Part shown: positions 6,273-44,921 of the stretch, piece by piece
Layout: each line of letters opens with the position of its first letter
Numbering within the stretch: position 1 is the stretch's first letter
Assembly (NCBI RefSeq): GCF_900129765.1
Contig: NZ_FQWU01000002.1
Location: 310,001-374,000, forward strand
DNA length: 64,000 nucleotides
Reading direction: 5' to 3'
DNA from: Massilia sp. CF038
GTDB taxonomy: Bacteria; Pseudomonadota; Gammaproteobacteria; Burkholderiales; Burkholderiaceae_D
The notes under the pieces: model-generated
The model's database searches: none
What the model was told of the DNA's origin: nothing
The model's input: only the letters and a program-made list of their open reading frames with translations
Program-made: the position numbers and the translations under genes

Positions 6273-6302
6273 TTAGCAATCTAACTTGCATTGCGGCATG
6301 AT
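6273..6302 (+). promoter_or_regulatory. Putative promoter of candidate small RNA A
   Basis: TTAGCA (6273-6278), 18 bp, then CATGAT (6297-6302). The -10 lies in a GCATGATTAC block shared exactly with a second locus near 44850. No coding gene follows before the terminator at 6342. Confidence 0.4.
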
Positions 6303-6308
6303 TACACC

Positions 6309-6371
6309 TGTCTCCTCTATTCTCTTTCCGAAAATAGATTCAGCCCGCTCCTTGTAGCGGGCTTTTTTTTT
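6309..6371 (+). ncRNA. Candidate small RNA A (shared 5' seed GUCUCCUC)
   Basis: A plus-strand unit of about 63 nt ends in a strong intrinsic terminator but has no gene upstream on that strand. Its predicted 5' end begins close to GTCTCCTC (6310-6317), a pyrimidine-rich sequence able to pair with Shine-Dalgarno sites. The same -10 block and the same GTCTCCTC occur at 44849-44868, again followed within 30-35 bases by an orphan terminator. An ATG in the shared block could open an 18-codon ORF, but a one-base indel between the two copies puts the conserved bases in different frames, so RNA-level conservation is favoured. Function is unknown. Confidence 0.45.
6342..6371 (+). terminator. Rho-independent terminator of candidate small RNA A
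   Basis: Perfect 8-bp stem AGCCCGCT/AGCGGGCT with a 6-nt loop and a run of nine T. No plus-strand coding sequence lies upstream that it could serve. Confidence 0.85.
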
Positions 6372-6473
6372 GCTGCGGCCAGCGCGTCAGCAGTAACGCC
6401 TTGCACGAGGCAATTGGTGTACGATTCATCATCTTTGCGTTTCTACAATTTCAATCCATGATACAGGCAACCC

Positions 6474-7322
6474 ATGCCCGAACCTAGCGCCAGCACCCGG
6501 CTCGCGGCACACATCAACTGGCAGGCAAGCGACCTGGGCGAACCCGCCGGCTGGACGCATGCTTTGCGCCTCAGCATCGACATTCTGCTCAACTCCCCCT
6601 GGCCGCAATTACTGGTCTGGGGCGAACGTCAAGTCATCGTGTACAACCAGGCGTATGTCGACCTGGCCGGTCCTGGCCACCCGCCCGCGCCTGGCGCACG
6701 CGCGCCCGCGCTCTACCCGCCCCTGCTGTCGGCGTCGCTCGATGCCTACCAGCGCGCCAGAGCAGGCACACCCCAGCACCTGATGAACCAGCGTCTGGCT
6801 CTACTGCCAGGCACGAATGCGACGGCCATCGATGCTGACCTGCACCTGACCCCACTGCGTGATGAACACGGCCAGGTGGCGGGCGTGCTGTATGCGGTGG
6901 CGCGCAGTGCGGCGCCCGCGCATGCGGTGCCCGATGCCACCGGCTTGCGCGTGCTGGTGGTGGAAGACAATCTCGATTCGCAATATCTGGTGTGCGAAAT
7001 GCTCAAGGCCTTTGGCCACGATGCCGATGGCGTGGCCCATGCCGAAGGCGCGCTCGACAAGCTTGCCGGCGGCCGCTACGACGTGCTGTTTTCCGACGTC
7101 AGCCTGCCCGGCATTTCCGGCGTCGACCTGGCGCGCCAGGCCTTGCAGAAAACCCCAGGCATGCATGTCATTTTCGCATCGGGCTACGGCGAAGCACTGT
7201 TGCGCCATGTGGACTTCCCGTTTCAGTCGCTGCAAAAGCCATACGAAATTGAACAGCTGCAGGCGGCACTGGCTGCTGTTGCCGGTGGCGCCCGCATTGG
7301 CAGCGGCGCGCCAAATGTGTGA
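6474..7322 (+). CDS. PAS-like domain protein with C-terminal receiver domain
   Basis: A 282-aa cytoplasmic protein. Residues 15-145 resemble the PAS-type module that in Burkholderiales often precedes hybrid kinases (LLNSPWPQLLVWG, VIVYNQAY, DLHLTPLRDEHGQVAGVLY). Residues 158-275 form a receiver domain: LVVEDN, phospho-acceptor Asp208 in FSDVSLPG, FASGYG and QKPYE. There is no kinase or DNA-binding output, so it is a stand-alone sensor/receiver. It lies about 160 bp before a large hybrid kinase on the same strand and may feed into or receive phosphate from it. Confidence 0.85.
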   Translation: MPEPSASTRLAAHINWQASDLGEPAGWTHALRLSIDILLNSPWPQLLVWGERQVIVYNQAYVDLAGPGHPPAPGARAPALYPPLLSASLDAYQRARAGTPQHLMNQRLALLPGTNATAIDADLHLTPLRDEHGQVAGVLYAVARSAAPAHAVPDATGLRVLVVEDNLDSQYLVCEMLKAFGHDADGVAHAEGALDKLAGGRYDVLFSDVSLPGISGVDLARQALQKTPGMHVIFASGYGEALLRHVDFPFQSLQKPYEIEQLQAALAAVAGGARIGSGAPNV

Positions 7323-7481
7323 CTCGGACGGCCCCGGCCGAGCTAGAATTGGCTTGACCCGGGGGCCGCAACGCGGCCGCTGTCCCGTTCACCACGAGCA
7401 CCGCACCATGATTCACAGCGAACCGATTTCGCGCCATGCCAGTCTGCCATTGCCCTTCGCCGCCATTGGCACGGAGGCTGC

Positions 7482-10466
7482 ATGAGCGACGAACAGGACG
7501 ATATTGAGCAGATGCGCACGGTAGCGCTGCGCAACGCCAACAGCGTGCTGGTCGCGCGTCAGCGGGCCCAGCAAGAGTTGCTGGAAGCGCGCGATGAACT
7601 GCGGCGCGCCAATACGCGCATGGAGAACATGCTCGAGAGCCTGACCGACGGCTTCTGCGCGGTCGACCTCGACTGGAAAATCAGCTACATCAACGGCCGT
7701 GCGCTGTCCTTGCTGTCCGCCTTGCACAAGCGCCCTGGCGATTTGCTGGGCAAGGCCATCTTCGAGGTCTTCCCCGAGCTTTCCGGCAGCACCATGGAAA
7801 CCGAATGCCGGCGCGCGCTGGCGCTGCAGCAAACGGTGAGCTTCGAGTTTTTCCACCCCCAGCTGGGCTGCTGGTTCGACCTGCGCGCCTACCCCTCGGC
7901 CGAGGGCTTGACCGTGTATTTTCAGGACATCAGCCAGCGCAAGGCCGATGAACAAGCCCTGCTCGACGGGAACAACCGCCTGCAAGTCGCACTCTCGGCC
8001 GGCCGCCTGGGCGACTGGCGCTGGGACAGCGCCACTGACCGCCTTACCCTGGGCAAGCGCGCGGCCGAGATATTGGGCCTGACGCCCGAAGTGCCGCTGC
8101 CATGGGCCGCGCTGCGCGCGCGCTTTCACGACGGCGACAAAGAACTGGCGCGTACCGAATTTTTGCAAGCATTCGCCCAGCACACCGATCTGAACATCGA
8201 ATGCCGCGTCGAACGTGCCGACAATGTGCCTTGCTGGGTGGGCGTGGTTGGCCGCGTCGACTATGACCGTAACGGCCATGTCCTGGGCATGACCGGGGTG
8301 GTGCAGGACATCAGCACCCGCAAAAGCGCGGAAGATACACTGCGCGAATCCGAAGAAGTGCTGCGCGCCCTGGCCAACTCGATTCCTCAGCTGGCCTGGA
8401 TGGCGCAGGCCGATGGCGCCATTGTCTGGTTCAACAAGCGCTGGTACGAATATACCGGCACCACGCCGCAGCAAGTGGTGGGCTGGGGCTGGCAATCGAC
8501 CCAGGATCCGGAAGTGCTGCCGCAAATGCTGCAGCGCTGGCACGAATCGATCCGCACCGGCAACCCGTTTGAAATGGAATACCCGATCCGCGGCGCCGAT
8601 GGCCAGTACCGCTGGTTCCTCACGCGTGTCAACGCGGTGCGCGACCGGCTTGGCCACGTGGTGCGCTGGTTTGGCACCAATACCGACGTCGATCAGGTCA
8701 AGCGCGTCGAACAAGCCTTGCGCGAGGAATCGAACGTGCTCGAGCTGCTCAACAGCACCGGCAGCGCGCTCGCTTCGCAGCGTGACCTGAAGTCGCTTCT
8801 GCAGACGGTGACGGACGCGGCCACCGGCATCAGTGGCGCGCGCTTTGGCGCCTTCTTCTATCATGGCAAGGACAGCGACGGCGACCTGTTCACTTTGTAC
8901 ACCCTGAGCGGGGCGGCGCCTGCCGAATTCGAGCAGTTTGGCCAGCCCCGCGCGGCCGAACTGTTTGGCCCCAGCCTGCGCGGTGAAGGCGTGGTGCGCT
9001 CGGACGACATCAGCACCGACCCCCGATACGGGCGCGGCGAACCGTTTTTTGGCGGCCCCGTAGGCCACCCCACAGTACGCAGCTATCTGGCCGTACCCGT
9101 CATTGCGCGTTCGGGCGAAGTGCTGGGCAGCTTGTTCTTCGGGCACCCGGAAGCGGGCATCTTCAGCGCCCGCACCGAACGCATCGTGGGTGGCATCGCA
9201 GCCCAGGCCGCCGTAGCGATCGATAACACGCGTTTGTACGAAGCGGCCCAGCGCGCCGCCGAAGAACGCAAGGTCCTGCTGGAAAGCGAACGCTCGGCCC
9301 GCGCCGAAGCCGAACGCACCAGTCAAATGAAAGACGAATTCCTGGCCACGCTGTCGCACGAACTGCGCACCCCCTTGTCGGCCATCCTGGGCTGGGCCCA
9401 GGTGCTGCGCCGCGGCAGCCGCGACACCGCCGACCTGCAGCGTGGCCTGCAAACCATCGAGCGCAACGCGCGTGCCCAGGCCCAGCTGATCGAAGACTTG
9501 CTCGACATGAGCCGCATCACGTCGGGCAAGGTGTTGCTGGACATGCAGACCGTGTCGCCAGCCGTATTCATCGACGCTGCCATTGAAACCGTGCGCCCGG
9601 CCGCGGACGCGAAAAACATCCGCCTTGAACGCGAATACGATCCGAATGTGGGCCAGATTGCCGGCGACCCGGCACGCTTGCAGCAAGTGATCTGGAACCT
9701 GCTGTCGAACGCGATCAAGTTCACCCCGCGCGACGGCCTGGTGCGCATCATGCTCACGCCGTTCGAGGGCCATGTCGAAATCACGGTGCAGGATACTGGC
9801 ATTGGCATCAAGCCCGAATTCAAGGCCCATGTGTTTGAACGCTTCCGCCAGGGCGACGCCTCGACCACGCGCAAGCATGGCGGTCTGGGACTGGGCCTAT
9901 CCATCGTCAAGCACCTGATCGAGCAGCATGGCGGCACGGTGCGGGTCGACAGCGAGGGCGAAGAGCGCGGTGCCAGCTTCACCATCGAGCTGCCTTCGAC
10001 CAACCGGCAGACGCCCTCCTCGCGCCCGGACCGCCCTCCTTACAGCCTGCCATCGCCACATACGCCCGACATCAAGCTGCGCGACCTGTCGCAAGTGAAT
10101 GTGCTGGTGGTCGACGACGAAGCCGACGCACGCGACTTGATCAATCGAATCTTGTCGGATTGTCATGCCAGCGTACGCACCGTGTCGAGCGCCGAGCATG
10201 CCCTGGCCGCCATTGCCGAACACGTGCCCGATGTGCTGGTGAGCGACCTTGGCATGCCCGATGTCGACGGATTCGAGCTGCTGGCGCGGGTGCAAGCGCT
10301 TGGCCCCGGGCGCGGCGGCAATGTGCCAGCCGTGGCGCTGACTGCATTCGCCCGCTCCGAAGACCGGCTCAAGGCGCTCGAAGCGGGCTTTCGGGCGCAT
10401 ATTCCCAAGCCCGTCGAACCCAGTGAACTGATTGCAACAGTGGCATCAATGGTGACGCGCCGATAG
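7482..10466 (+). CDS. PAS-PAS-PAS-GAF hybrid histidine kinase
   Basis: A 994-aa soluble hybrid kinase with no membrane segment. Order: N-terminal coiled coil (1-50), three PAS domains (about 45-155, 160-275, 290-410; the third contains GTTPQQVVGWGWQ), a GAF domain (about 430-590), HisKA with SHELRTPLSAILGW (about 620), HATPase_c (NLLSNAIKF, DTGIGI, GGLGLGLSIV), and a receiver (VVDDEADAR, VSDLGMPDVDG, IPKPVEP). A GGAGG ribosome site precedes the ATG. A 25-codon ORF (7408-7485) ends in an ATGA overlap with this start but has only a weak ribosome site. The signal is unknown; several cytosolic or redox cues are possible. Confidence 0.93.
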   Translation: MSDEQDDIEQMRTVALRNANSVLVARQRAQQELLEARDELRRANTRMENMLESLTDGFCAVDLDWKISYINGRALSLLSALHKRPGDLLGKAIFEVFPELSGSTMETECRRALALQQTVSFEFFHPQLGCWFDLRAYPSAEGLTVYFQDISQRKADEQALLDGNNRLQVALSAGRLGDWRWDSATDRLTLGKRAAEILGLTPEVPLPWAALRARFHDGDKELARTEFLQAFAQHTDLNIECRVERADNVPCWVGVVGRVDYDRNGHVLGMTGVVQDISTRKSAEDTLRESEEVLRALANSIPQLAWMAQADGAIVWFNKRWYEYTGTTPQQVVGWGWQSTQDPEVLPQMLQRWHESIRTGNPFEMEYPIRGADGQYRWFLTRVNAVRDRLGHVVRWFGTNTDVDQVKRVEQALREESNVLELLNSTGSALASQRDLKSLLQTVTDAATGISGARFGAFFYHGKDSDGDLFTLYTLSGAAPAEFEQFGQPRAAELFGPSLRGEGVVRSDDISTDPRYGRGEPFFGGPVGHPTVRSYLAVPVIARSGEVLGSLFFGHPEAGIFSARTERIVGGIAAQAAVAIDNTRLYEAAQRAAEERKVLLESERSARAEAERTSQMKDEFLATLSHELRTPLSAILGWAQVLRRGSRDTADLQRGLQTIERNARAQAQLIEDLLDMSRITSGKVLLDMQTVSPAVFIDAAIETVRPAADAKNIRLEREYDPNVGQIAGDPARLQQVIWNLLSNAIKFTPRDGLVRIMLTPFEGHVEITVQDTGIGIKPEFKAHVFERFRQGDASTTRKHGGLGLGLSIVKHLIEQHGGTVRVDSEGEERGASFTIELPSTNRQTPSSRPDRPPYSLPSPHTPDIKLRDLSQVNVLVVDDEADARDLINRILSDCHASVRTVSSAEHALAAIAEHVPDVLVSDLGMPDVDGFELLARVQALGPGRGGNVPAVALTAFARSEDRLKALEAGFRAHIPKPVEPSELIATVASMVTRR

Positions 10467-10592
10467 TTTTTTGCGAAGATTGGCATTCCTACCTGCGCAC
10501 GCGGCACTGTCCTACAAGAAATGTTCTATTCGCGTGTACACTGCAAAAGTTAATTCTGAATGCTGGACCCTGTTGATTGATCGAGAAACCGC

Positions 10593-11576
10593 ATGCCGAG
10601 CCGTGAAGACATCCTGAACGCAAAGATTCTGGTCGTGGACGATTCTGCCGACAATATCGAACTGATGGAAGAGATATTGCGCGAGGAAGGATACGCCTGC
10701 GTCAGTTCGACCATGCTCCCCGAACAGGTGTGCCCGCTGCATCGACAGCATAACTACGATCTCATTCTGCTCGACTTGCAAATGCCGGGCTTGAACGGCT
10801 TTCAGGTCATGAAGGGGCTGAAAGAAATTGAACACGGCGGCTACCTGCCCGTGCTGGCCCTGACTGCCCAGCCCAGCTTTAAAATCGCGGCCCTGGAAGC
10901 AGGCGCGCGCGACTTCATCAGTAAACCATTCGACCTGCTTGAAGTGCACAAGCGCATCCACAACATGCTGGAAGTGCGCCTGCTGTACAAAGAGCTGGCC
11001 CAGTACAGCCGTGCCCAGCAGGAGCTGGCGCTGCACGATCCGCTGACCGGCCTGCCAAACCGGCGCCTGCTGGAAGACCGCATCGAGACCACGCTCCAGC
11101 ATGCCAGCCGCAATCATCACAAGGCGGCCATCATGTACCTCGATCTGGATGGCTTCAAGGCTATCAACGACACGTATGGCCATGCATATGGCGATGAAGT
11201 ACTCAAGATCGTCTCGCAGCGCTTGCTGGCCTCATCGCGCAAGGAAGACACGGTGGCGCGCCTGGGCGGTGACGAATTCATGGTCGTGCTGGGCGAAGTC
11301 AACAGCCTGAGCGACGCCCAGGGTCCGGCGGCCAAACTGGTGGAAGCCGTGTCCGAACCCTTCTTCATCAAGGACCTGACACTGCGCCTGTCGACCAGCA
11401 TCGGCATCAGCATTTATCCCGACGATGCGGAAACCGTCGATGCCTTGATCAGCATTGCCGATTACGCTCTGTACGAAGCCAAGCGCGGCGGCAAGAACCG
11501 CTTCTGCGCGACCTCGGCTGCGCCCGCAGCGGTGCTGCCGGTCCAAAAAAAAGTTAACCTCTCGCCTGGGCGCTGA
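10593..11576 (+). CDS. Response regulator diguanylate cyclase (REC-GGDEF)
   Basis: A 327-aa protein that should make cyclic di-GMP when phosphorylated. The receiver domain (10-125) has ILVVDD, phospho-acceptor Asp61 and Lys111. After a linker helix the GGDEF domain (about 145-310) has an intact active site, LGGDEF at 224-229. An allosteric inhibitory site RKED (216-219) lies exactly five residues before it, so product inhibition is expected. The domain start LHDPLTGLPNRR is typical. It resembles WspR-like and PleD-like output proteins. It follows the PAS/GAF hybrid kinase at 126 bp and may be its target (inference). Confidence 0.94.
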   Translation: MPSREDILNAKILVVDDSADNIELMEEILREEGYACVSSTMLPEQVCPLHRQHNYDLILLDLQMPGLNGFQVMKGLKEIEHGGYLPVLALTAQPSFKIAALEAGARDFISKPFDLLEVHKRIHNMLEVRLLYKELAQYSRAQQELALHDPLTGLPNRRLLEDRIETTLQHASRNHHKAAIMYLDLDGFKAINDTYGHAYGDEVLKIVSQRLLASSRKEDTVARLGGDEFMVVLGEVNSLSDAQGPAAKLVEAVSEPFFIKDLTLRLSTSIGISIYPDDAETVDALISIADYALYEAKRGGKNRFCATSAAPAAVLPVQKKVNLSPGR

Positions 11577-11610
11577 CTGACGCGCGCCGCATTTCATGCG
11601 CGACCATGAA

Positions 11611-11639
11611 AAAAAGCGGGCATTGCCCGCTTTTCTTTT
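11611..11639. terminator. Bidirectional terminator between convergent genes
   Basis: AGCGGGC-ATT-GCCCGCT stem extended by A4/T4 on both sides, so it reads as an intrinsic terminator in either direction. It lies between the REC-GGDEF gene and the convergent gene ending at 11655. Confidence 0.88.
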
Positions 11640-11654
11640 GCCCGCTGAATTGCT

Positions 11655-12116
<462 letters not shown>

Positions 12117-12191
12117 CTATGGCATTCAGGGGAACGAACGACTGTGCGCTAGCGAACCATGCCAGCAATTGCACGTGCGCACGATTGCTTT

Positions 12192-12220
12192 TTGACACTG
12201 TCGATGGTCATTGTTATCAT
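12192..12220 (+). promoter_or_regulatory. Strong sigma-70 promoter upstream of the REC-kinase-REC gene
   Basis: TTGACA at 12192-12197, exactly 17 bp, then TATCAT at 12215-12220. Predicted start near 12227 leaves a leader of about 115 nt before the GTG at 12344. Confidence 0.7.
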
Positions 12221-12343
12221 AGAAAAAATTCGACTCGACGTTGCGCAACGTTGAACGTTTTCACAGAGAAAAATTAGCGTGCTCTGCTATCCTGTCAGCA
12301 GCAGCAATCAAGCCAAACACAACATGCGCAGCACAGGAACGAC

Positions 12344-13960
12344 GTGCCCAAAATAGAAAAACCAAAAATCCTCGTCGTCAATGATGATGCTGCGAGCTTG
12401 CTGGCACTAACCAGTCTGCTGGATCAATGGGCCGAAGAATCGGGCTACGAAGTCATCGCCGCCAATTCTGGCCAGCACGCGCTGCGCCAGGTCTTGCTGC
12501 ACGATTTTGCCGTCATTCTGCTTGACGTCAACATGCCCGGCATGGACGGCTTTGAAACAGCCGAAGCCATTCACCAGCGCGCCCGTTCGGCCGACATTCC
12601 CATCATTTTCGTGACCGCTTTCCTGGCCGATGAAATTGACCGCCTGAAGGCGTATCAGCGCGGTGCTGCCGACTTCCTGTTCACGCCCGTGATTCCGCAA
12701 ATTCTGCACGCCAAAGTGCAAGTGTTCGTGGCACTGGCCATCAAGAATGAAGAACTGAAACGCCAGGCGCACAAGCTGAGCCAGCGCACCACCGAACTGA
12801 CTGCCACCAACAAGCGCCTCACGCGCGAGATGGAAGAGCGACAGGCGGCCGAGCGCAAGAGCCACGCCAAAGATGAGTTCCTGGCGATGCTGGGCCACGA
12901 GTTGCGCAACCCCTTGTCAGCCATCAGCAGTGCGGCCGCACTGATCGGCCTGCCTGCTGCCGGCCCGGACACGGTGTCGCGCGCCAAACAAATCATCCAG
13001 CGCCAGAGCCAGCACTTGTCGCGCATCGTTGACGATCTGCTCGACCTGTCGCGTGCCATGTCCGGCAAAATATTGCTAGCGCGCCAGCCTGTCGAAGTGT
13101 CGGCGCTGGTGTCGGCCTGCCTGGACACCTTCAAGGCCACTGGCCGCACCGGCAATTACCAGCTGAACATGGCTCTGGCGCCTGGCTGGGTCGACGGTGA
13201 TCCGACCCGGCTTGAGCAGATTGCCACCAACCTGCTCGACAACGCACTCAAATACACCCCGGCTGGCGGCGCCATTGATATTGGCGTAGCCGAAGATGGC
13301 GAGCAAGTCGTGTTTACCGTGCGCGATACCGGCGTGGGCATTTCCGAAGAATTGCTGCCACATGTGTTCGACGTGTTCGTCCAGGCAAGCACCACGCTGG
13401 ACCGGGCCCAAGGCGGCCTTGGGATCGGCCTGGCGCTGGTGCGGCGCCTGGTCGAGTTGCATGGCGGTAGCGTCAGCGCCCATAGCGACGGTGCCAGCAC
13501 CGGCAGCACCTTTGAAATCCGTCTGCCGCGCGCCGTACCGGTGCAACTGGCGCCACGCGATGCGCCCAATTTCGACGATGCCGGCAAGCCCAGCGTGCTG
13601 CTGATCGAAGACAACGACGATGGCCGGGAAATGATGGTCACCATGCTCGATGCTTGTGGCTATCCCGTGGCACAGGCCGCCGATGGCTTGCAAGGCGTGC
13701 AAATGGCCCTGACCCACCTGCCCGACGTGGCCCTGGTCGACATTGGCCTGCCCGGCATTGACGGCTACGAAGTGGCGCGCCGCCTGCGCGCCGATGCCAG
13801 CACCCGCGCCATAAAGCTCATCGCCCTGACCGGCTATGGCCTGGCGGAAGACCAGCGCCGCGTGCTGGACGCGGGCTTCGACATGCATCTGGTCAAACCG
13901 GTGGACATCAACCACCTGCTTGAAGCAATCACCCGCTGCGCCCCCGCCAAGGCCGCCTGA
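12344..13960 (+). CDS. Hybrid histidine kinase with N- and C-terminal receiver domains
   Basis: A 538-aa soluble protein, REC-HisKA-HATPase-REC. The N-terminal receiver has LVVNDD and phospho-acceptor Asp61 (LLDVNMPGMDG). The conserved lysine of the KP motif is replaced by threonine (FLFTPV, Thr114), so phosphorylation-driven switching may be altered. A coiled coil leads to HisKA with His185 (LGHELRNPLSAI), HATPase_c (NLLDNALKY, DTGVGI, GGLGIGLALV) and a normal second receiver (LIEDNDDG, VDIGLPG, LTGYG, VKPVD). The start is GTG with AGGA seven bases upstream; no in-frame ATG is available. It is followed by a DesK/NarX-type kinase. Confidence 0.92.
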   Translation: MPKIEKPKILVVNDDAASLLALTSLLDQWAEESGYEVIAANSGQHALRQVLLHDFAVILLDVNMPGMDGFETAEAIHQRARSADIPIIFVTAFLADEIDRLKAYQRGAADFLFTPVIPQILHAKVQVFVALAIKNEELKRQAHKLSQRTTELTATNKRLTREMEERQAAERKSHAKDEFLAMLGHELRNPLSAISSAAALIGLPAAGPDTVSRAKQIIQRQSQHLSRIVDDLLDLSRAMSGKILLARQPVEVSALVSACLDTFKATGRTGNYQLNMALAPGWVDGDPTRLEQIATNLLDNALKYTPAGGAIDIGVAEDGEQVVFTVRDTGVGISEELLPHVFDVFVQASTTLDRAQGGLGIGLALVRRLVELHGGSVSAHSDGASTGSTFEIRLPRAVPVQLAPRDAPNFDDAGKPSVLLIEDNDDGREMMVTMLDACGYPVAQAADGLQGVQMALTHLPDVALVDIGLPGIDGYEVARRLRADASTRAIKLIALTGYGLAEDQRRVLDAGFDMHLVKPVDINHLLEAITRCAPAKAA

Positions 13961-14035
13961 CCCACCTGCCCGCATGGCGCGCACGGCTGCCGCGACAGCT
14001 CCGTGGCGCCTGTTGTATGATTTAAGAAACATTGA

Positions 14036-14767
14036 ATGAGTTTCAGCATGAGCGCATCCGACCCACAACAACTTGAAGCGGAAATCGAACGCCGCGTTGC
14101 GGCGCGCACGGCCGACCTGCGCGAGCTGCTTGGCCACCTCACCTTGTGCTGGGACGACGAACGGCGCCAGCTGGCGCGCCAGCTGCACGACAGTCTGGGT
14201 TCATCCATGACGGCGCTGACCATGCATCTGTCGCTGCTGACGCAGCAACTTCCTGGCGAATCGCCGCTGCAGCAGCGCACCACCCAGATGAAAAAGCTCT
14301 TGACGGGCATCATTAACACCAACCGCAACATGCAGCTGACCATCTGGAACGACAAGCTGGAGTTTCTGGGCATCAAAGCTGCACTGGCAGAACTGGTTAC
14401 CACCTTTGGCAGCGAACACCAGATGGTGGCGCGTGTGAGCTTGCCTGACGAAGACGTGGTCTATGGGCGCGAGCACGGAGTGGCCTTGCTGCGGGTGGTG
14501 GAAGAAGGCTTGCGCAACGTGGCAGCACATGCCGGCGCCAGCGAAGTGGACGTGATTCTGGACGACGATGACGAGATCGTCATGCTGACCGTGCGCGACA
14601 ACGGCGTAGGACCTGACAAGTATGATGCCGAGTCGCACAGCTGCCACGGCTTGCGCCTGCTGCGGGAACGCGCGCGTTATCTGGGCGGCGCGCTGGTGCT
14701 GGGGCCGGCACCGCAACGCGGCAGCGCCCTCACCCTGACCTTGCCGCGCCAGTTGCAGCAGGCCTGA
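14036..14767 (+). CDS. Sensor-less histidine kinase of the HisKA_3 (NarX/DesK) family
   Basis: A 243-aa cytoplasmic kinase without sensor or membrane segments. An N-terminal coiled coil (about 10-35) precedes a HisKA_3 dimerisation helix with the phospho-acceptor His51 in RQLARQLHDSLGSS. A HATPase_c domain follows (VVEEGLRNVAAHAGA, VRDNGVG, GLRLLRERA). Such kinases normally phosphorylate LuxR/NarL-type regulators; none is encoded nearby. It lies 75 bp after the REC-kinase-REC gene and could be cotranscribed. ATGs at 14036 and 14048 are both possible; neither has a strong ribosome site. Confidence 0.88.
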   Translation: MSFSMSASDPQQLEAEIERRVAARTADLRELLGHLTLCWDDERRQLARQLHDSLGSSMTALTMHLSLLTQQLPGESPLQQRTTQMKKLLTGIINTNRNMQLTIWNDKLEFLGIKAALAELVTTFGSEHQMVARVSLPDEDVVYGREHGVALLRVVEEGLRNVAAHAGASEVDVILDDDDEIVMLTVRDNGVGPDKYDAESHSCHGLRLLRERARYLGGALVLGPAPQRGSALTLTLPRQLQQA

Positions 14768-14776
14768 CGCCTGCTT

Positions 14777-36159: not shown

Positions 36160-36226
36160 TTTCCGTTAAGGAGTATGATGGAACATCGCCGAGACCGTTT
36201 CGGCACCTCCAGATCGGAGCAACGCC

Positions 36227-36784: not shown

Positions 36785-37192
36785 ATGCAAACCTCCCTTC
36801 TCCGCTTTGCCTTTGCCGCTGCACTGCCCGCTTGCGTGCAGGCCCAGCACGTCGATCAACAACGCGCCTGGTGGTCCATCGCCGCAACCGCCCGTCCTTT
36901 GGGCAGCATCCTTGCAACAGACCAGATGACCGAACCGGCGCAGCTGCGCCAGCGTATCCAGCCCGAGGTGTCCAGCGTGGCCCTGCTTTCCTTTCACTAT
37001 GCGTCCCGGCCGCAAGGGTCCCTGTGGCGCCCGGCCATGCGGGCGCCGGCCTTACTGCCGCCTGCCCATCATCTGTCGATCGCGGTCGCCTGGCCCCTGT
37101 CCAGCCGGCCCGAACCGCCTACCCTTGGCACCCTGCCACAGCACCCCGCCCTCTTGCCCAGCTTGCGCATCACCTTCAATACCACTTACTGA
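36785..37192 (+). CDS. Hypothetical secreted protein
   Basis: A 135-aa protein starting with a likely signal peptide ([18 protein letters not shown], cut before QH). The mature part is rich in Pro, Ala and Leu and has no recognised domain; the C-terminus [11 protein letters not shown] ends with a pattern seen in beta-barrel termini or small periplasmic proteins. The start was chosen at the signal peptide. It stands alone between two unrelated genes. Reading-frame statistics look coding, but no family was recognised. Confidence 0.5.
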
Positions 37193-37270
37193 AGGGTTCG
37201 AATTGTCCTTGGCATTGCATGGCGCAAATGCTAACGTGGGCGCGTTTTGACACAAAAGGGAAACGCTTCC

Positions 37271-38449
37271 ATGCAGGCACCGATCAACCGCCTTCCGTCG
37301 GGACGCGTCGTTTCGCTTGATGTATTTCGCGGCCTGACCTTTGTCCTGATGTTGTTCGTCAATTTCCTGGCGGGCGCCAGCGGCATTCCTGCCGGGATCC
37401 ATCATGTGACGGCTGAAGTCGATGGCATGGGACTGGCCGACGTGGTGTTTCCTGCCTTCCTGTTCGCCGTCGGCATGTCGATTCCCTTCGCCTTGAACGG
37501 GCGCATTGGCAAAGGTGACACGCCGGCCCAATTGCAGCGCCATGTGGGCTGGCGCGCTGCCAGCCTGATCATGATGGGCCTGTTCATGGTCAATATGGAG
37601 TCGGGCTATAACGAACAGGCGATGGGCATGCCAATTGCGTTGTGGGCGCTTGCTTTCTATGCGGCCGTGGCCCTGGTGTGGGGCGCGTATCGCTGCCGCA
37701 GCGCAGTCGCCGAGCGGCTCTGGCGCGCCGTCGGCTTGTTCGCCCTGCTTGCACTGGCTGCGCTTTACCGCGGCGGCGATGACGGCAGCGGCTGGATGAC
37801 CACCCAATGGTGGGGCATCCTCGGCTGCATCGGCTGGGCCTATCTGGCGGGCAGTCTGATCTATCAGCTGGCACGCGGGCGGGCGCTGCTACTCGCGTTT
37901 GCCATCGGCCTGTGCGTGGCCTTGTTTGCGGTCAGTTCCACCTTCAATATCCTGCACGTCAGCGCCATGCATGGCACCCATACGTCCATCGTACTGGCCG
38001 GGCTGCTGTGCGCACTGCTGTTCTTCGACCTGCACCAGGATGCCAGCGCAGGCACGCGCTTGCGGCGCGCCCTGGTGCTGGCGGTGTCATTGGCTAGCGT
38101 GGGCTACCTGCTGCACCTGGTCTATCCCGTTTCCAAGATCGGCGGTACCCCGCCCTGGGCCCTGTATTGCGCCGCCCTGTGCTGCGGCGCCTTCGCCCTG
38201 CTCTACTGGCTGACGGAGATGCGCCAGCTGCGGGGCTGGACCGCCCTGGTCGAGCCGGCCGCGAGCAGTCCGCTCGTCACCTACCTGATTCCCTTCGTGC
38301 TGGGCTCGCTGATGGCGCTGTTCGACCTGTCCTGGCCGGCACCGCTGGTACGCGGCACGGGGGCGCTGCTGTTTGCCCTGGTCTTTTCGGCCGCCGTTGT
38401 GGCCCTGGTCGGACAACTGAACACCATTAACTGCAAACTCAAACTGTAA
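37271..38449 (+). CDS. NagX-like membrane acyltransferase (DUF5009 / heparan-alpha-glucosaminide N-acetyltransferase-like)
   Basis: A 392-aa protein with about 10 membrane helices. It opens with SLDVFRGLTFVLMLFVN and GLADVVFPAFLFAVGMSIP, the signature of DUF5009/NagX proteins related to human HGSNAT. NagX genes occur in N-acetylglucosamine regulons of Gammaproteobacteria. Here the gene lies 9 bp before a GH18 chitinase, so a role in handling chitin-derived amino sugars is plausible. The ATG at 37271 follows AAGGGA; the upstream TTG frame is less likely. The substrate is an inference. Confidence 0.82.
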   Translation: MQAPINRLPSGRVVSLDVFRGLTFVLMLFVNFLAGASGIPAGIHHVTAEVDGMGLADVVFPAFLFAVGMSIPFALNGRIGKGDTPAQLQRHVGWRAASLIMMGLFMVNMESGYNEQAMGMPIALWALAFYAAVALVWGAYRCRSAVAERLWRAVGLFALLALAALYRGGDDGSGWMTTQWWGILGCIGWAYLAGSLIYQLARGRALLLAFAIGLCVALFAVSSTFNILHVSAMHGTHTSIVLAGLLCALLFFDLHQDASAGTRLRRALVLAVSLASVGYLLHLVYPVSKIGGTPPWALYCAALCCGAFALLYWLTEMRQLRGWTALVEPAASSPLVTYLIPFVLGSLMALFDLSWPAPLVRGTGALLFALVFSAAVVALVGQLNTINCKLKL

Positions 38450-38458
38450 AGGATCACC

Positions 38459-39766
38459 ATGAAGCGTCGCCTGCTGCCCGTCCTGCCCCTCCTGCTGGCT
38501 CTGCATGCCGCGCTGGCGGGCGCCACCGAAGTGGGCTCCTACTACACGGCCTGGAGCGCCGAGGATGGCTTTCGCCTGAAACAATTTGACCAGTCAGGTG
38601 CGGCAGCACGCTTTACCTATCTCAACTATTCCTTTGGCAATGTCTACAAGATGGACGACGGCAGCTTCCGCTGCGACAGCGGGCGCGACGTCAAGGAAGC
38701 GGGTGACGGCACCGGCATGCGCTCCACGCTCGACTATGCCAGGCGGCACAGTTCAGCCGAGTCAGTCGATGGCAGCGCCGACGCCGCCGGCCAGCCGCTG
38801 GCGGGCAACTTCAACCAGCTGCGCCAGCTCAAGCAAAAGCACCCCAAATTGAAGGTCATGATTGCGCTCGGCGGCTATCAGTGGTCGCGCTACTTCTCGG
38901 ATGCGTCGGCGACGGCGGCGCGCCGGCAGACCCTGGTCGCGTCCTGCATCGACACTTATATCCTCGGTAACCTGACCCCGCTGGATGGCCACGGCGGCAA
39001 AGGCGCCGCTGCCGGCATGTTCGATGGGATCGACATTGATTGGGAATATCCGGGCGTGCCCCTGATGGCGTACAACAGCGTCAGCCCCAAGGACAAACGC
39101 AATTTCACCTTGCTGCTGGCGGAGTTTCGCAAGCAGCTCGACGCGCTGGGCAAGCGCCAAAACAAGCGCTACTACCTGACGGCTGCTCTCAACAGCGGGC
39201 AGCAAACCACCGACGCGACCGAGCCAGAGCGCTACGCGCGTTCGCTGGACTGGGTCAACCTGATGACCTACGATTTCCACGGCGCCTGGAACAAGCAAGG
39301 GCCGGCGGATTTCCATTCGAACCTGTTTTCCGATCCTGCCAGCCCCGACCCGACGCACCCCAGCGTTGACCGTGGCGTGACCCGCATGATCAAGGCCGGT
39401 ATTCCCGCGCACAAAATCGTGATCGGCGTGCCGTTTTACGCGCGTGGCTGGTCGGGTGTGGGCGCTGCCAACAACGGCCTGTACCAAAGCGCCACCGGCC
39501 CGGCCACCGGTTTCGAAGAAGGCGCCGAACGCTACAGCGCCATCGTCAAGAGCGCGGCCCCGGTGTTCCGTCATCCGGTCACCCGGCAATTGTGGACGTA
39601 CCAGGACAACACGTTCTGGAGCTATGACGATCCGGCTGCAATCGCCGAAAAGGTGGCCTATCTGCGCCAGCGGGGGCTGGGCGGCATCATGTCCTGGTCG
39701 CTCGATCAGGACGATGCAGCGTTTTCGCTGTCAAAAGCGATGAGTGCCGTTCCTGGGGCAAAATAG
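38459..39766 (+). CDS. Secreted chitinase, glycoside hydrolase family 18
   Basis: A 435-aa exported enzyme. Residues 1-22 are a signal peptide. The GH18 barrel carries the catalytic DxxDxDxE motif as Asp189, Asp192, Asp194 and Glu196 (FDGIDIDWEYPG), with MTYDFHG and a C-terminal MSWSLDQDD tryptophan strand. There is no separate chitin-binding domain. It should cut beta-1,4 links in chitin or chito-oligosaccharides in the periplasm or outside. It is cotranscribed with the NagX-like gene. Confidence 0.93.
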   Translation: MKRRLLPVLPLLLALHAALAGATEVGSYYTAWSAEDGFRLKQFDQSGAAARFTYLNYSFGNVYKMDDGSFRCDSGRDVKEAGDGTGMRSTLDYARRHSSAESVDGSADAAGQPLAGNFNQLRQLKQKHPKLKVMIALGGYQWSRYFSDASATAARRQTLVASCIDTYILGNLTPLDGHGGKGAAAGMFDGIDIDWEYPGVPLMAYNSVSPKDKRNFTLLLAEFRKQLDALGKRQNKRYYLTAALNSGQQTTDATEPERYARSLDWVNLMTYDFHGAWNKQGPADFHSNLFSDPASPDPTHPSVDRGVTRMIKAGIPAHKIVIGVPFYARGWSGVGAANNGLYQSATGPATGFEEGAERYSAIVKSAAPVFRHPVTRQLWTYQDNTFWSYDDPAAIAEKVAYLRQRGLGGIMSWSLDQDDAAFSLSKAMSAVPGAK

Positions 39767-39808
39767 CAACACAAATTACTACTGTATAACAGGCCCAGCA
39801 AACTAGCG

Positions 39809-42800
39809 CTACACCACCGTGGCATGGCCAATGCTGGCCAGCCACGCCTCGGCGGTGGCAACGGTTTCCGCCAGCTCGCGATCGAGCTGTTCGAACAAGG
39901 GCACGATCGCCGCCCCGCCAGCATCTTCGCGCAGCAATTCCTCCAGCTGCAAGCTGACCCGAATGAAGCGGCGCGCACCGACGATGCCGACCGTGCCGCG
40001 CAAGCTGTGCAGTTCCTTGCCCGCCTCAACATGGGAATCGGCCGCATACGCCGCGCGCGCCGCGGCCAGTTGCGGCCCGGCCTTGGCCAGCACCCGGCCG
40101 ATCAGTCCGACCAGTTCCTGGCGCCGCTCGGGATGCTTTTCGTTCAGTTTCATCAGCGCTTGCACGTCAAACACTTCGGACACCATGCCATTGACAGCCG
40201 GCGCATGCCGTTTCAGCGCCGCAAACAGCGACGCGGCATCAATCGGCTTGGCCACAAAATCGTTCATGCCCGCCTCCAGACATTGCTGGCGTTCCGATGA
40301 CAGCACACCGGCGCTCATGGCGATGATGGGCATGCCGAGCTTGAGCGAATGGCGGATCTGGCGCGTGGCAGCCAGGCCATCGAGCACCGGCATTTGCACA
40401 TCCATCAAAATCAGGTCGAAACGGGCATCGAGCGCCAGCAGATCGATCGCTTCCTGGCCGTTGCCAGCGACGCGCACGGTCATGCCTTCCGCTTCCAGCA
40501 TACCGCGCGCGACGATCTGATTGAGTTCATTGTCTTCCACCAGCAGCAGGCGCAAATTGCCCAGCTGGGCTCGGGCAGGTTCGGCCCGGCCATGGTCTGC
40601 CTTGCTTGGCGCGGCGGGCAGCGACAGGACACTGGCGATGGCTTCCGTCAGGCCATCGCGGGTAACCGGCTTGAACAGGAATGTGCCGCGTCCGTCCACG
40701 CCCTGCATCTCGCCCGACTGCTGGCGTCGCCCTGCGCTGGCCAGCAAGACAAACGGCAAGCCTTGCACGCCACCCAGCGCATGGCAGGCTCGAATCGCCT
40801 CCAGGCCACTCATATCAGGCAGACTGGCGTCGACCACGATCACATCGTACGGGCAGGTGATGCCGCCATACGCTTTCAGCTCAGCCAGCGCGTCGGCGCC
40901 GCAGGCCGCCACATTGCTGTGCCAACCAAGCGCCTGTGCGGATTCCGTCAGCGCGCGCTGGCTGATGGGACTGGCCTCGATGAACAGCAAGCGCACGTCG
41001 CGCAAATTGTCCGGCAGGTCCGGCATGGCGCTGCTGTCGCCAACGATGGCGAACGGCAGCGTGACCGTGAACTCGCTGCCCTGGCCTGGCGTGCTGCACA
41101 TGGCCAGTGTGCCGCCCATCAGTTCCACCATGCTCTTGGAAATGGTCAGGCCCAGGCCGGTGCCGCCAAAGCGCCGCGTCATGGAGGCGTCGGCCTGCGT
41201 AAACGGCGAGAACAGGCGCGCCTGCTGCGCAGCATCGATGCCGATACCGGTGTCGCGCACCACAAAGCGGATCTGCACGGTGCTGCCATCGCGCCCTGCT
41301 TCTTCGGCAAACAGGGCGACGGCGCCGGCGTCGGTAAATTTGATGGCGTTCGAGGTGAGGTTGGTCAGCACTTGCTGCAGGCGCAGCGCATCGCCGAACA
41401 GGCGTGGCGGCAGCTGCGGCTGGGCCGACACCACCAGCTCGAGCGTCTTGCTACCGGCGTTGACTGCCATCATCGAGGCGCACATGTTCAGCACGCTGTT
41501 CAATTCGAAGGTTTCGGGCGCCAGCTCCATGCGCCCCGCTTCCACTTTCGAAAAATCAAGCACGTCGTTGATGATGCCCAGCAGCGACTGGCCGGAATTG
41601 CGAATCATGTCCAGGTATTTGCGCTGTTCGGGCGCCAGCGCCGTCTTGCCCAGCAAGTGGGTAATGCCCAGTACCGCATTCATCGGGGTGCGGATCTCGT
41701 GGCTCATATTGGCCACGAACTCGCTCTTGGCGCGGCTGGCCGCCTCGGCCAGTTCCTTGGCGCTGACCAGTGAGGCCTGCAGGTGCTGCTGCTGCTCAAT
41801 ATTGTGGGCAATGCCCAGGTAACCGGTAATTTCACCACTGGGGTCGCAAATGGCCGTCACCACCAGGCTGACAGGCACGTGCGTGCCATCGCGCCGCACA
41901 TAGGTCCATTCGCGCTGCTGTCCCTGGCCGGGGCGCACGGTGGCGACCATCAGAGAGAAACCGCTGCCCTCGATCCCATGTGTGCGCCTGACCTCGGCAT
42001 CGTGGGCTTCAATTTCCTCCGGCAAGTGCAGCAGCGCCGGCGTGTGCTTGCCGATTACTTCGTCCGCCGCATAGCCGAGCATGCGCTCGGCACCGATGCT
42101 GAACACCCGGATCACGCCGTCAAGGTCGGTGGCAATGATGGAAAACTCCAGCGCCGAATCGACCAGGGATTCGAACTTGTGTTCGGACGCCACCAGCGCC
42201 GACTGCATCTGCACGGCGCGCGCGGCAGCGTATTCCTCGCGCGCGGCCAGTGCCCGCACCACGCCAAAGAACAGCAGGCTGATCAGGGTACCGGCCACCA
42301 GCACGATTTGTGCCTTCTGCCGGTCGACCGCACTTTCAAAGCCCGACAGCGAGGTCACGCGGATGGTCCAGTCGTGCTGCTGCAAATGCAGCGGCACCAC
42401 GGTGGTAAACGGATTTGGATAGTCGCGCTGCTCCTGCGCCGAACGTACCGTGCTCACGTACATGGGCGAAGCGGGACCGATCCTGTCGCCGTCGAAAATT
42501 TCAAGCGCCACGTCATTGACGGCCGCATGCAGCACGCCCTCCATCAGATCGTTCATGCGAAACGGGCTGTACACCACGCCTTTGAGCGCTGCGCGCCGCT
42601 GTTCGGCCGTGGCGAGGGGGTAGCCCGTCTGGTACACCGGCACGAACATCAGAAAGCCAGCCTGCTCGGCCACGCCGCTCTCCTGCACCAGCCGGGTGCG
42701 GCCTGAAATGGCCGCTTCGCCTGACGCCTCGGCTTGCAGCAGTCCGCGCGCACGCACCGGTTCGGATAGCAGGTCGAAGCCAAAGGCACGCTGATTTTGG

Positions 42801-44182
42801 GGCGTGAACGGTTCCAGGTAAACAATGACCAGGGCGCGCTCGCCGTCGCGTTTGGGCCAGATGGCAAACTGCGGGTAGCCTTCGGCGCGCACGTCGCGCT
42901 CGACAAACGCACGCTGGCTCGGCTGCACCACGCGGGCATAGCCAAACCCCTGCACGCCCGGGAAATTTTTCGAAATGGCCATGCTGTCGACAAACAACTG
43001 CCACTCCTTGCGCTCGACCGAATCGGAAGCGCTGAACAGCGCCTTGGCGCTGCGCAAGCCTTGCTCGTAAGTACGCATGCGCTCGGCAATGCGCTGCTGC
43101 AGGCTGGCCACGCGCGCATTGAACTGGTCGCGCGCCCGATGCTCGGTGGCGGCCGACACCATCTGCCACACCAGTACGGTCATGCCGACGCACACAAACA
43201 GAATCAGCCAGTGCGCCGCCAGCCGGTGCCGCAGCGGCACTTCAGCCTTGCGTTCGCGCGTTTCATACAGGTCGGCGCACAGCACCATCCCCACCAGGCA
43301 GCACAGGGCGACGAAGGTCTGGATGCCGAACAAGGCATCGTTGAGCGTGCCGGTGGCAAACGGACCCAGACCCTGGGTGGTTCCGGCCACCGCGCCGCTG
43401 GCAATCACCAGGCAAGCGAACGTGGTGCCGCGCCGGCCATGGCGAAACGCGGCCCAGCCCAGGGCCGGCACCAGAATGTAGGCCACCCAGCGGCCGGCCG
43501 CGTCGGGTTGCACCTTGTGCCCAAAGATGGCAACCAGCACCAGGCACAGACCAGCCAGGGACAGCAGCGCTTCTGCCCGCAGCAAGGCGCGCAGGCTGCC
43601 ACCGCCGGCCTGGCGCCACGCAATCACCAGCGGCGCCAGCACCAGCACGCCCACCACATCGCCCAGCCACCAGGTACCGAGCACGGTCCAGATCAGGCCC
43701 ACCGGGACGATATTGCCAAACAACAGTGCCGAGCTGCCCACCAGCGCACTGACCGCGCAGGCACAAGCGCCAATAATGGCGAATTTATAGACTTGCTGGA
43801 GCTGGGTCAGCGGCGTCGTGTCGCCTGCCGTGCGGCGCAGCAGCCAGGCGCCCAGGACCGCCTCGCCAGTGTTACCGGCGGCAATGGCAGCCGAGATCAG
43901 GAGGGCATGCGCGCCCTGCGCGACGCCGTTCGCGTAGAACACAACCATATTAGCAACCACCGCGCCAATGAATACGCCGGGCCACAAGCGCAGGCCACCA
44001 ATGAGCAGGGCGCCGAAGGCCAGGCCCGACGGGGGCCACACGGGGCTGGCGTTGCTGCCCGCGAAAGCGAGCATCAAACCCAGGCGTGCGGCGCCGTAAT
44101 AGACGACCGCAAGCACGATGATGGGGAGCAAGCGGCTCATGGTCTGGCGCAGTCCGCCCAGCTCAGCCGCCCTGGTGGTCAT
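39809..44182 (-). CDS. MASE1/CHASE hybrid histidine kinase with two receivers and Hpt
   Basis: A 1457-aa membrane phosphorelay protein. Order: MASE1 (about 10-310, eight helices, SPVWPPSGLAFG), one helix, a periplasmic CHASE domain (about 350-620), a helix, PAS (about 670-790), HisKA (FVANMSHEIRTPMNAV), HATPase_c (NLTSNAIKF, GTGLGLTIS), receiver 1, receiver 2 (LLLVEDNELN, LMDVQMPVLDG, VAKPID) and a C-terminal Hpt (ELHSLRGTVG). Receiver 1 lacks the usual acidic pair at its start (LLFIEASP) but keeps VVDASLPD and FKPV. CHASE domains often sense small organic ligands. It overlaps the upstream receiver gene by 4 bp. Confidence 0.93.
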   Translation of the reverse strand: MTTRAAELGGLRQTMSRLLPIIVLAVVYYGAARLGLMLAFAGSNASPVWPPSGLAFGALLIGGLRLWPGVFIGAVVANMVVFYANGVAQGAHALLISAAIAAGNTGEAVLGAWLLRRTAGDTTPLTQLQQVYKFAIIGACACAVSALVGSSALLFGNIVPVGLIWTVLGTWWLGDVVGVLVLAPLVIAWRQAGGGSLRALLRAEALLSLAGLCLVLVAIFGHKVQPDAAGRWVAYILVPALGWAAFRHGRRGTTFACLVIASGAVAGTTQGLGPFATGTLNDALFGIQTFVALCCLVGMVLCADLYETRERKAEVPLRHRLAAHWLILFVCVGMTVLVWQMVSAATEHRARDQFNARVASLQQRIAERMRTYEQGLRSAKALFSASDSVERKEWQLFVDSMAISKNFPGVQGFGYARVVQPSQRAFVERDVRAEGYPQFAIWPKRDGERALVIVYLEPFTPQNQRAFGFDLLSEPVRARGLLQAEASGEAAISGRTRLVQESGVAEQAGFLMFVPVYQTGYPLATAEQRRAALKGVVYSPFRMNDLMEGVLHAAVNDVALEIFDGDRIGPASPMYVSTVRSAQEQRDYPNPFTTVVPLHLQQHDWTIRVTSLSGFESAVDRQKAQIVLVAGTLISLLFFGVVRALAAREEYAAARAVQMQSALVASEHKFESLVDSALEFSIIATDLDGVIRVFSIGAERMLGYAADEVIGKHTPALLHLPEEIEAHDAEVRRTHGIEGSGFSLMVATVRPGQGQQREWTYVRRDGTHVPVSLVVTAICDPSGEITGYLGIAHNIEQQQHLQASLVSAKELAEAASRAKSEFVANMSHEIRTPMNAVLGITHLLGKTALAPEQRKYLDMIRNSGQSLLGIINDVLDFSKVEAGRMELAPETFELNSVLNMCASMMAVNAGSKTLELVVSAQPQLPPRLFGDALRLQQVLTNLTSNAIKFTDAGAVALFAEEAGRDGSTVQIRFVVRDTGIGIDAAQQARLFSPFTQADASMTRRFGGTGLGLTISKSMVELMGGTLAMCSTPGQGSEFTVTLPFAIVGDSSAMPDLPDNLRDVRLLFIEASPISQRALTESAQALGWHSNVAACGADALAELKAYGGITCPYDVIVVDASLPDMSGLEAIRACHALGGVQGLPFVLLASAGRRQQSGEMQGVDGRGTFLFKPVTRDGLTEAIASVLSLPAAPSKADHGRAEPARAQLGNLRLLLVEDNELNQIVARGMLEAEGMTVRVAGNGQEAIDLLALDARFDLILMDVQMPVLDGLAATRQIRHSLKLGMPIIAMSAGVLSSERQQCLEAGMNDFVAKPIDAASLFAALKRHAPAVNGMVSEVFDVQALMKLNEKHPERRQELVGLIGRVLAKAGPQLAAARAAYAADSHVEAGKELHSLRGTVGIVGARRFIRVSLQLEELLREDAGGAAIVPLFEQLDRELAETVATAEAWLASIGHATVV

Positions 44183-44592
44183 GTTCGGTTGTCCCGTTCG
44201 GCGCGCTTGCGCTGCAGGTTGGCGATGGATTTTTTGACCGCGTCTTCGACGGTGCCGGCCCGGAAGGGCTTGATGATGAAGCCGGAAGCGCCGCTGGTGA
44301 CCGCGCGCTCGATCGAGTTGCGGTCGTTGTTGGCCGTGACCATCAGTACTTCCGTCATGGGCAGCGCGTCCTTGATGGCGGGCAGCACGTCAAGTCCGTC
44401 CATGCCTGGCATGACAATGTCGAGAAAAACGATATCGGGCTTTTCCCGCAGGCACAGCTCCAGGCCGGTGCGGCCGCTGCTGGCCTCGGCAACGACTTCG
44501 GTCAACTCCGGCGGCAAGGCCAGGCGCAGCGCGGACCGGGTCAAATCGTTGTCGTCAATTAATGCCACGCGAATTCGACCAGATGCTTGCAC
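44179..44592 (-). CDS. Single-domain response regulator
   Basis: A 137-aa CheY-like receiver: ALIDDND, phospho-acceptor Asp58 (FLDIVMPGMDG), VTANND and IIKPF, with a short basic tail (KRAERDNRT). It has no output domain. The ATGA overlap with the large hybrid kinase makes it a coupled partner, likely a phosphate shuttle, sink or a protein-contact output for that kinase. Confidence 0.92.
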   Translation of the reverse strand: MQASGRIRVALIDDNDLTRSALRLALPPELTEVVAEASSGRTGLELCLREKPDIVFLDIVMPGMDGLDVLPAIKDALPMTEVLMVTANNDRNSIERAVTSGASGFIIKPFRAGTVEDAVKKSIANLQRKRAERDNRT

Positions 44593-44825
44593 GTATGCCT
44601 CGATTCAAACGGTAGGGAAAACGGTTTCTCCCCTGTCTGGTACATGCTATCAACAGCGCAAAATCCTGGCAATCGTTTCCGCTATGTGAGTATTGCGACA
44701 ATGTAATAAATAGGCCATCAACAAAGATCACGGTACTTTCCACGCCGCATAATGTGAAAGCGAAGAATTTTGCTTGGCGAATGGGCTTTTGTTTGATTTT
44801 AGAAACAAATCTCTAGATGCCGCTG
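44593..44825. other. Intergenic region without recognised gene
   Basis: This AT-richer stretch upstream of the receiver gene should hold its minus-strand promoter. No ORF with a ribosome site and no repeat was seen. The candidate small RNA B follows on the plus strand. Confidence 0.5.
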
Positions 44826-44854
44826 TTTACATATTTGCGGCTATGCAGCATGAT
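44826..44854 (+). promoter_or_regulatory. Putative promoter of candidate small RNA B
   Basis: TTTACA (44826-44831), 17 bp, CATGAT (44849-44854). The GCATGATTAC block around the -10 is identical to that of the candidate at 6297. Confidence 0.42.
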
Positions 44855-44860
44855 TACTCC

Positions 44861-44921
44861 GTCTCCTCCAATTTCTCACAAGATTTTGGAATTTGCCCAC
44901 CCTCGCGGTGGGCTTTTTTTT
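44861..44921 (+). ncRNA. Candidate small RNA B (shared 5' seed GUCUCCUC)
   Basis: A plus-strand unit of about 61 nt between the divergent receiver gene and a convergent minus-strand gene. The predicted 5' end is GTCTCCTC (44861-44868), the same bases at the same distance from the -10 as in candidate A near 6310. The body (CAATTTCTCACAAGATTTTG) differs from A, and the terminator stem differs too. No plus-strand gene precedes it. Shared promoter and seed with divergent bodies is the pattern of small-RNA families such as OmrA/OmrB. Function is unknown. Confidence 0.45.
44895..44921 (+). terminator. Rho-independent terminator of candidate small RNA B
   Basis: GCCCACC/GGTGGGC stem with a 5-nt loop, then eight T. 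It has no A run on the 5' side, so it works for the plus strand only and does not serve the minus-strand gene ending at 44931. Confidence 0.85.

Follow-up and report, generated by a model that had tools for sequence, protein, structure and literature searches.

Two RNA loci of the RF02278 double-hairpin kind in Massilia sp. CF038, with a proposed action at Shine-Dalgarno regions

At two places on the plus strand of a 64,000-nucleotide stretch of Massilia sp. CF038 (contig NZ_FQWU01000002.1, positions 310,001 to 374,000; hereafter the window, numbered from its first letter), a decamer containing a -10-like element, GCATGATTAC, is followed within a few nucleotides by a second common string, GTCTCCTC, and then by a terminator. 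What kind of gene is repeated here, and what might it do? An original prediction, made without database searches, had proposed two candidate small RNAs (sRNAs) that share a promoter and a 5' seed and belong to no recognised named family. Our analysis favours, with a probability of about 0.88, the reading that each locus is the gene for a trans-acting double-hairpin sRNA of 62 nt, of the Rfam RF02278 kind, whose 5' end would cover the Shine-Dalgarno (SD) regions of mRNAs that serve the uptake and catabolism of carbon and amino acids. The family is already described and these copies are additional members, the find being real yet mostly ordinary; a search confined to the open-access literature found no published report of this genome's copies.

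Family match and architecture of the two RNA genes

Scanning the whole window with cmscan, we found that locus 1 (6309-6370, plus strand, 62 nt) matches RF02278, entitled "Betaproteobacteria toxic small RNA" and also known as double-hairpin RNAs, over the full model length (1-64) with 60.3 bits (E 1.2e-9), above the gathering cut-off of 50 bits. Locus 2 (44860-44921, plus strand, 62 nt) was likewise aligned full-length (1-64), at 40.6 bits (E 8.3e-7 in 501 bases). The covariance match at locus 1 is far beyond chance and that at locus 2 is good though below the cut-off; given its score, we describe locus 2 as RF02278-like, since architecture and seed are alike while formal membership is not reached. 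A named family, on whose expression, overexpression and targets there is published work, does fit the two candidates that had been proposed without one. The whole genome holds seven RF02278 matches at E ≤1.2e-5, three of them above the cut-off, and the next best match has an E-value of 0.46.

The features expected of this family, an unpaired CU-rich 5' end, a first hairpin and a second, terminating hairpin, were found at both loci in the predicted folds, the terminators and the model alignments, alongside its betaproteobacterial spread and several copies per genome. At locus 1 the seed UGUCUCC (6309-6315) is followed by hairpin 1 (6316-6338; nt 8-30 of the minimum free energy fold, in line with the Rfam structure line and with pair changes across paralogues) and by an intrinsic terminator (6342-6370) made of a hairpin at 6342-6363 (8 pairs, 6 of them GC) and a T8 run. 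Locus 2 has the seed CGUCUCC (44860-44866), hairpin 1 (44867-44890; nt 8-31 of the fold, also in line with the Rfam structure line) and an intrinsic terminator (44895-44921) with a hairpin at 44895-44913 (7 pairs, 6 GC) and, again, T8. The two 5' ends share an 8-nt identity at GUCUCCUC. Both RNAs are predicted to fold as two hairpins that leave nt 1-7 free, with a probability of being unpaired of at least 0.98 at locus 1 and at least 0.99 at locus 2. The earlier claim that the two RNAs share a 5' seed which can pair with SD sequences is supported in substance, while the accessible part of the seed shrinks to about 7 nt (UGUCUCC or CGUCUCC), the next UC being predicted to start hairpin 1.

A search of the window on both strands places GCATGATTAC at 6296 and 44848 and nowhere else, and GTCTCCTC solely at 6310 and 44861; both reverse complements are absent, which bears out the proposed succession of two identical blocks. 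Their spacing, said to be the same at both loci, is off by one (4 nt at locus 1, 3 nt at locus 2), in agreement with the one-base indel that the original prediction itself had pointed out. A scan for the full pattern with N4 spacing returned a single window match even at 3 mismatches (0.01 expected from shuffles) and missed locus 2 because its spacing is N3. Within the decamers (6296-6305 and 44848-44857), CATGAT forms a putative -10 element at 6297-6302 and at 44849-44854. A consensus scan scored a sigma-70-type promoter at locus 2, TTTACA-17-CATGAT, with its putative -35 element at 44826-44831 and 9/12 matching positions. The corresponding TTAGCA-18-CATGAT at locus 1, whose putative -35 element (6273-6278) agrees with TTGACA in 4/6 positions, was read from the sequence by eye; at 8/12 it lies below the scan threshold and so went unreported there. 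The first nucleotide of the RF02278 model is the one preceding GUCUCC and lies about 6 nt past the putative -10 element, so the predicted RNA 5' end coincides with that of the family.

This architecture gives both loci the appearance of short RNA genes that terminate independently. The nearest gene-like open reading frames (ORFs) upstream (5990-6238 at locus 1, 44179-44592 at locus 2) are divergent, on the minus strand, so that no gene just upstream runs in the direction of either RNA gene. The original prediction was right on this point, as it was in placing a plus-strand terminator after each RNA. Downstream, a plus-strand ORF (6474-7322) begins about 100 nt beyond locus 1, and a convergent minus-strand ORF (44931-45431) faces locus 2.

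The ORF beyond locus 1 raises the question of whether each RNA could be a cis-acting leader or attenuator of a downstream gene, as would weak matches to the Trp leader (26.6 bits, cut-off 41) and the Phe leader (22.1 bits, cut-off 55). The RF02278 score lies far above these leader scores, and such RNAs occur at seven places in the genome, with flanks matching different sets of copies in other genomes; at locus 2 there is no co-directional gene close downstream and, with the convergent ORF in front of it, nothing to lead. We rejected the leader, which we consider very improbable. A type I toxin gene, or a gene for some other short peptide, suggested by the word "toxic" in the family name and by reports, cited in PMC4603805, that family members inhibit E. 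coli growth, is less credible still: neither 62-nt body contains an ATG, TTG and GTG codons appear only from nt 27 on, and both the spacing indel and the changes at paired positions fit an RNA. The peptide gene was rejected on the missing ATG, and the earlier preference for RNA over peptide stands.

Conservation of the seed and of the -10 decamer

How widespread are these RNAs, and which of their parts are kept? In the counts that follow, this genome is included at the level of genus, family and order, and the family and order searches used stricter filters. All 17 genus genomes carry RF02278, with 107 matches at E ≤0.001 and at least one above the cut-off in each genome. Across the GTDB family, 134/145 genomes match (E ≤0.001; 126 above the cut-off), with 1-21 matches per matching genome and 7 in this one; across the order, 164/300 do (E ≤1e-4; 114 above the cut-off). 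The 11 family genomes lacking a match under these filters (G022, G056, G064, G082, G087, G103, G106, G114, G122, G135 and G147) all measure 1.7-2.6 Mb, which suggests loss through genome reduction.

We sorted the genus copies into classes A (the class of locus 1, 6309), B, C, D, E, F (that of locus 2, 44860) and G using our own regular expressions on body and flanks, which left 6/107 copies unclassified, and judged the relatedness of copies from blastn flank matches. The two window loci accordingly represent different paralogue classes. The seed [U/C]GUCUCC begins 87/107 copies (63 UGUCUCCUC, 18 UGUCUCCAC, 6 CGUCUCCUC); 16 of the 20 copies without it belong to class E and mostly read UGUCUCUUU. 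The copies and the conserved seed that had been expected in related genomes are thus there. Nucleotides 1-6 are unpaired in the minimum free energy fold of 67/67 distinct bodies outside class E. Among these paralogues, hairpin-1 position 10 is a U-A pair in 34, C-G in 31, A-U in 1 and unpaired in 1, and position 12 is U-A in 33, A-U in 25 and something else in 9, counted as pair types by nucleotide number in single folds rather than on an alignment or by a phylogeny-aware test.

The decamer presents a different picture. Its identity at both loci and its absence elsewhere in the window would fit a conserved promoter motif through which specifically this pair of RNAs is co-regulated, as would part of the outcome of a search for GCATGATTAC-N2-6-GTCTCCTC among 84,980 species genomes, which follows the check proposed in the original prediction. 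The search yielded 13 stretches, and in four of them, two from Duganella and one each from Pseudoduganella and Janthinobacterium, the pattern coincides with an RF02278 match; like Duganella, the latter two genera belong to the Oxalobacteraceae. At the other nine, no RF02278 match reaches the gathering score. Moreover, within the last 22 nt upstream, GCATGATTAC is found in only 2/107 genus copies, namely the two window loci, while CATAAT, CATACT, CATGAT or CATTAT is found in 69/107. In 14/16 other genus genomes blastn finds copies of locus 1 whose flank also matches, and these read, for example, GCATTATTAC, GCATACTGCA or GCATGATGCT in place of GCATGATTAC. On these grounds the identity of the two decamers looks like a coincidence within the -10 element. 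The -35 regions and the sequence upstream of the -10 also differ between the loci; the shared promoter that had been claimed does not hold, and a conserved GCATGATTAC promoter code was rejected, its chance of being right appearing slight to us.

A somewhat weightier doubt, though one we still think unlikely to be justified, is that locus 2 is a look-alike, with a promoter, a terminator and a CU-rich start, rather than a functional family member. It scores 40.6 bits against a cut-off of 50 and its class F occurs in 2/17 genus genomes, this one (G000) and G014. Furthermore, 23 genomes of a class-wide sample of 274 match RF02278 at E ≤1e-6, and only 3 of them, all in the same order, exceed the cut-off; the remaining 20, all outside the order, score 40.6-48.7 bits, so the score of locus 2 by itself is no proof of membership and this counts against our assignment. 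What tips the balance is the full-length double-hairpin architecture, the 8-nt identity with locus 1, the scored promoter and terminator, and the corresponding region of G014, which is 88.6% identical over 131 nt, with an RNA body that differs at its last base only. The response regulator neighbouring locus 2 is found in 4/17 genus genomes (E ≤1e-30), and in two of these, G013 and G015 (56% and 71% identity), the flanking 1.5 kb on each side hold no class F RNA, indicating that locus 2 is a lineage-restricted copy, its distribution owing to gain or to loss.

A proposed mechanism at Shine-Dalgarno regions

If both loci are sRNA genes of the RF02278 kind, how might they act? The family match, the architecture, the predicted accessibility, the seed conservation and the multicopy state were computed here; expression, use of Hfq and targets in this genome we infer. 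A sigma-70-type promoter would start transcription at or beside the U or C preceding GUCUCC, and the second hairpin would terminate it. Hairpin 1 would keep the first 7 nt single-stranded, and the free 5' end would pair with GGAG(AC)-type SD regions of many mRNAs, largely those behind the uptake and catabolism of carbon and amino acids, such that ribosome binding, and hence translation, would be lowered.

This SD-covering mechanism is backed by published work on relatives, and its extension to the present genome is by analogy. In B. cenocepacia, four RF02278 RNAs (ncS03, ncS05, ncS27 and ncS62) were found by differential RNA sequencing, and quantitative PCR showed increased levels of the first three in biofilm, under starvation and in glucose medium; 55-80% of the predicted interactions of double-hairpin RNAs fall around start regions, and in planktonic culture overexpression of ncS27 slowed growth while antisense to its 5' end sped it (PMC5688073). 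According to a review, NcS27 is predicted to act on the transport and metabolism of amino acids and carbohydrates, and many of its predicted targets are affected (PMC10987360). For B. pertussis, a preprint reports that Site 1 at the 5' end of S17S pairs with the ribosome-binding region of BP2158 in an E. coli reporter, where mutating either side disrupted repression and the compensatory pair restored it (PMC11722255).

Next to this published support stand two comparisons within the genome. From 464 kb we collected 399 crude gene starts, using a caller with a generic SD score that replaced an earlier, too imprecise one. The seed of locus 1, UGUCUCCUC, pairs at ≤-9 kcal/mol with 44 leaders, compared with 17 dinucleotide-shuffled leaders, 6 segments at -60..-36 and 5 coding segments; for the locus-2 seed the corresponding numbers are 51, 21, 10 (upstream) and 10. 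Searching the genome for AGGAGACA-N3-9-ATG, we found 24 exact matches and 2 for the backward control. We discarded 2 matches lying antisense to copies of the sRNA, 1 duplicate match and 3 ORFs of <50 aa, which left 18 genes, and the 17 matches of the permuted control tail AGGAGCAA were reduced to 13 by removing 4 ORFs of <50 aa. Carbon or amino-acid uptake or catabolism accounts for 10/18 of the AGGAGACA-led genes versus 0/13 of the controls (one-sided Fisher p 0.001), with Pfam run on 16/18 targets and 10/13 controls, control L236 searched against NCBIfam only, and the unsearched L187, L188, L248 and L249 scored as not carbon, as were a cytochrome P450 and a DegT aminotransferase. The ten candidate targets encode a DctP binding protein, a cyclomaltodextrinase-type amylase, a pullulanase, a class II aldolase, two MFS sugar/metabolite transporters, a thiolase, an indolepyruvate ferredoxin oxidoreductase, a periplasmic binding protein and a CBM6-cellulase. 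Throughout the 17 genus genomes, AGGAGACA-N3-9-ATG occurs 409 times, a number that includes antisense matches to sRNA genes, versus 269 times for the single control tail AGGAGCAA, and is the more frequent in 16/17.

Several of our own results and some published ones speak against the proposed mechanism. Random permutations of the 9-nt seed paired with leaders equally well on average in 34/200 cases, so much of the pairing signal reflects pyrimidine composition; the generic SD score in the start caller itself biases toward SD pairing; and GGAGACA is not a dominant leader 7-mer across the gene starts. The functional sorting was post hoc, done with the gene names seen and against one control tail, and the control count becomes 2/13 if a PhyH dioxygenase and an aminopeptidase are called catabolic. 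Among the relatives, ncS27 did not significantly alter the cell counts or the respiration of biofilms (PMC5688073), and two other candidate targets of S17S that were tested showed no effect (preprint PMC11722255).

Paralogue classes and known double-hairpin RNAs

The copies in the genus differ in what lies upstream of them. By eye, an AT-rich box of similar appearance lies upstream of classes A, B, C and G, clearest in class C (ATGtCtGGTATc..AAAtg.CAATTaGACatATA), and the upstream consensus is ACnGTAnnnnTACnGTATTGC in class D and TTGTGTGtGTtcaCGCACaGA in class E. In class D copies such as L004 (G000:C2:353943-354011), ACnGTAnnnnTACnGTATTGC is an inverted repeat that lies at about -50 to -30, differs from the A/B/C/G box and may be a repressor or activator site. 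Class E (L005, G000:C9:311792-311852, minus strand, and L206-L235) has a near-invariant body, TGTCTCTTTCAGGACATCCCTAGTTTTGGACTT, with a terminator, and a palindrome-like TTGTGTGtGTtcaCGCACAGA about 30-50 nt upstream. This class is present in 16/17 genus genomes, and its 23-nt core (≤2 mismatches) recurs in 29/145 family genomes from 5/44 genera, sometimes in two or three copies; with an RF02278 score of only about 40 bits in this genome, it may deserve a family of its own. The class G copy of this genome (L007, G000:C6:605058-605118, minus strand) has an altered seed, UGUUCCCUC, and flank-matched copies keep UGUCUC(C/U) in 15/16 other genus genomes; we read L007 as a decaying or retargeted copy.

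Do such siblings, with one seed and different upstream elements, combine several inputs on one regulon? Drawing on the similar box of A, B, C and G, the palindrome-like sites of D and E, and the separate promoter of the lineage-restricted class F copy at 44860, we tentatively suggest, as an idea with somewhat less than even odds, that the genus maintains sibling sRNAs with a shared anti-Shine-Dalgarno seed and several unrelated promoters, through which different signals could throttle the same carbon-uptake and catabolic regulon, new copies adding new inputs.

The mapped members reported here add to a family whose native role is thinly studied, and they can be compared with it at several levels. 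Both loci share with RF02278 the full-length covariance match, the UGUCUCC-type 5' end, hairpin 1 and the GCCC...GGGC terminator. They differ from it in the score of locus 2 below the gathering cut-off and in the second CUCCUC of the Rfam consensus, in the hairpin-1 region, which is absent from nt 10-32 of both loci. This second motif is kept by 12/15 copies of class A, 17/17 of B and 11/18 of C, and by none in D, E, F or G; at locus 1 (6316-6338) its absence leaves mainly the 5' seed for SD pairing.

The B. cenocepacia RNAs ncS03, ncS05, ncS27 and ncS62 resemble the window loci in having several homologous copies, CU-rich single-stranded regions and a short double hairpin, and three of the four have a common upstream motif (PMC5688073), whereas the copies in this genus have several upstream types. 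Copy numbers differ as well: three to five are reported in Burkholderia (PMC5688073), against seven matches in this genome (three above the cut-off) and up to 21 per genome in the GTDB family. Herbaspirillum seropedicae, a species of the Oxalobacteraceae, to which the organism of the window probably belongs too, has the RF02278 members Hsnc059, 063, 086 and 107, predicted as sRNAs and with RNA-seq profiles, four copies compared with the seven matches here (PMC7011215). In Bordetella pertussis, S17 and S17S have a 5' Site 1 that pairs with ribosome-binding sites and a 5' end homologous to RF02278 according to the authors, and their targets include transporters and catabolic genes (PMC11722255). 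S17S is processed by RNase E from a 190-nt RNA and reaches far higher levels in the Bvg+ mode (PMC11722255), whereas at the window loci the start of the family coincides with the predicted start of transcription.

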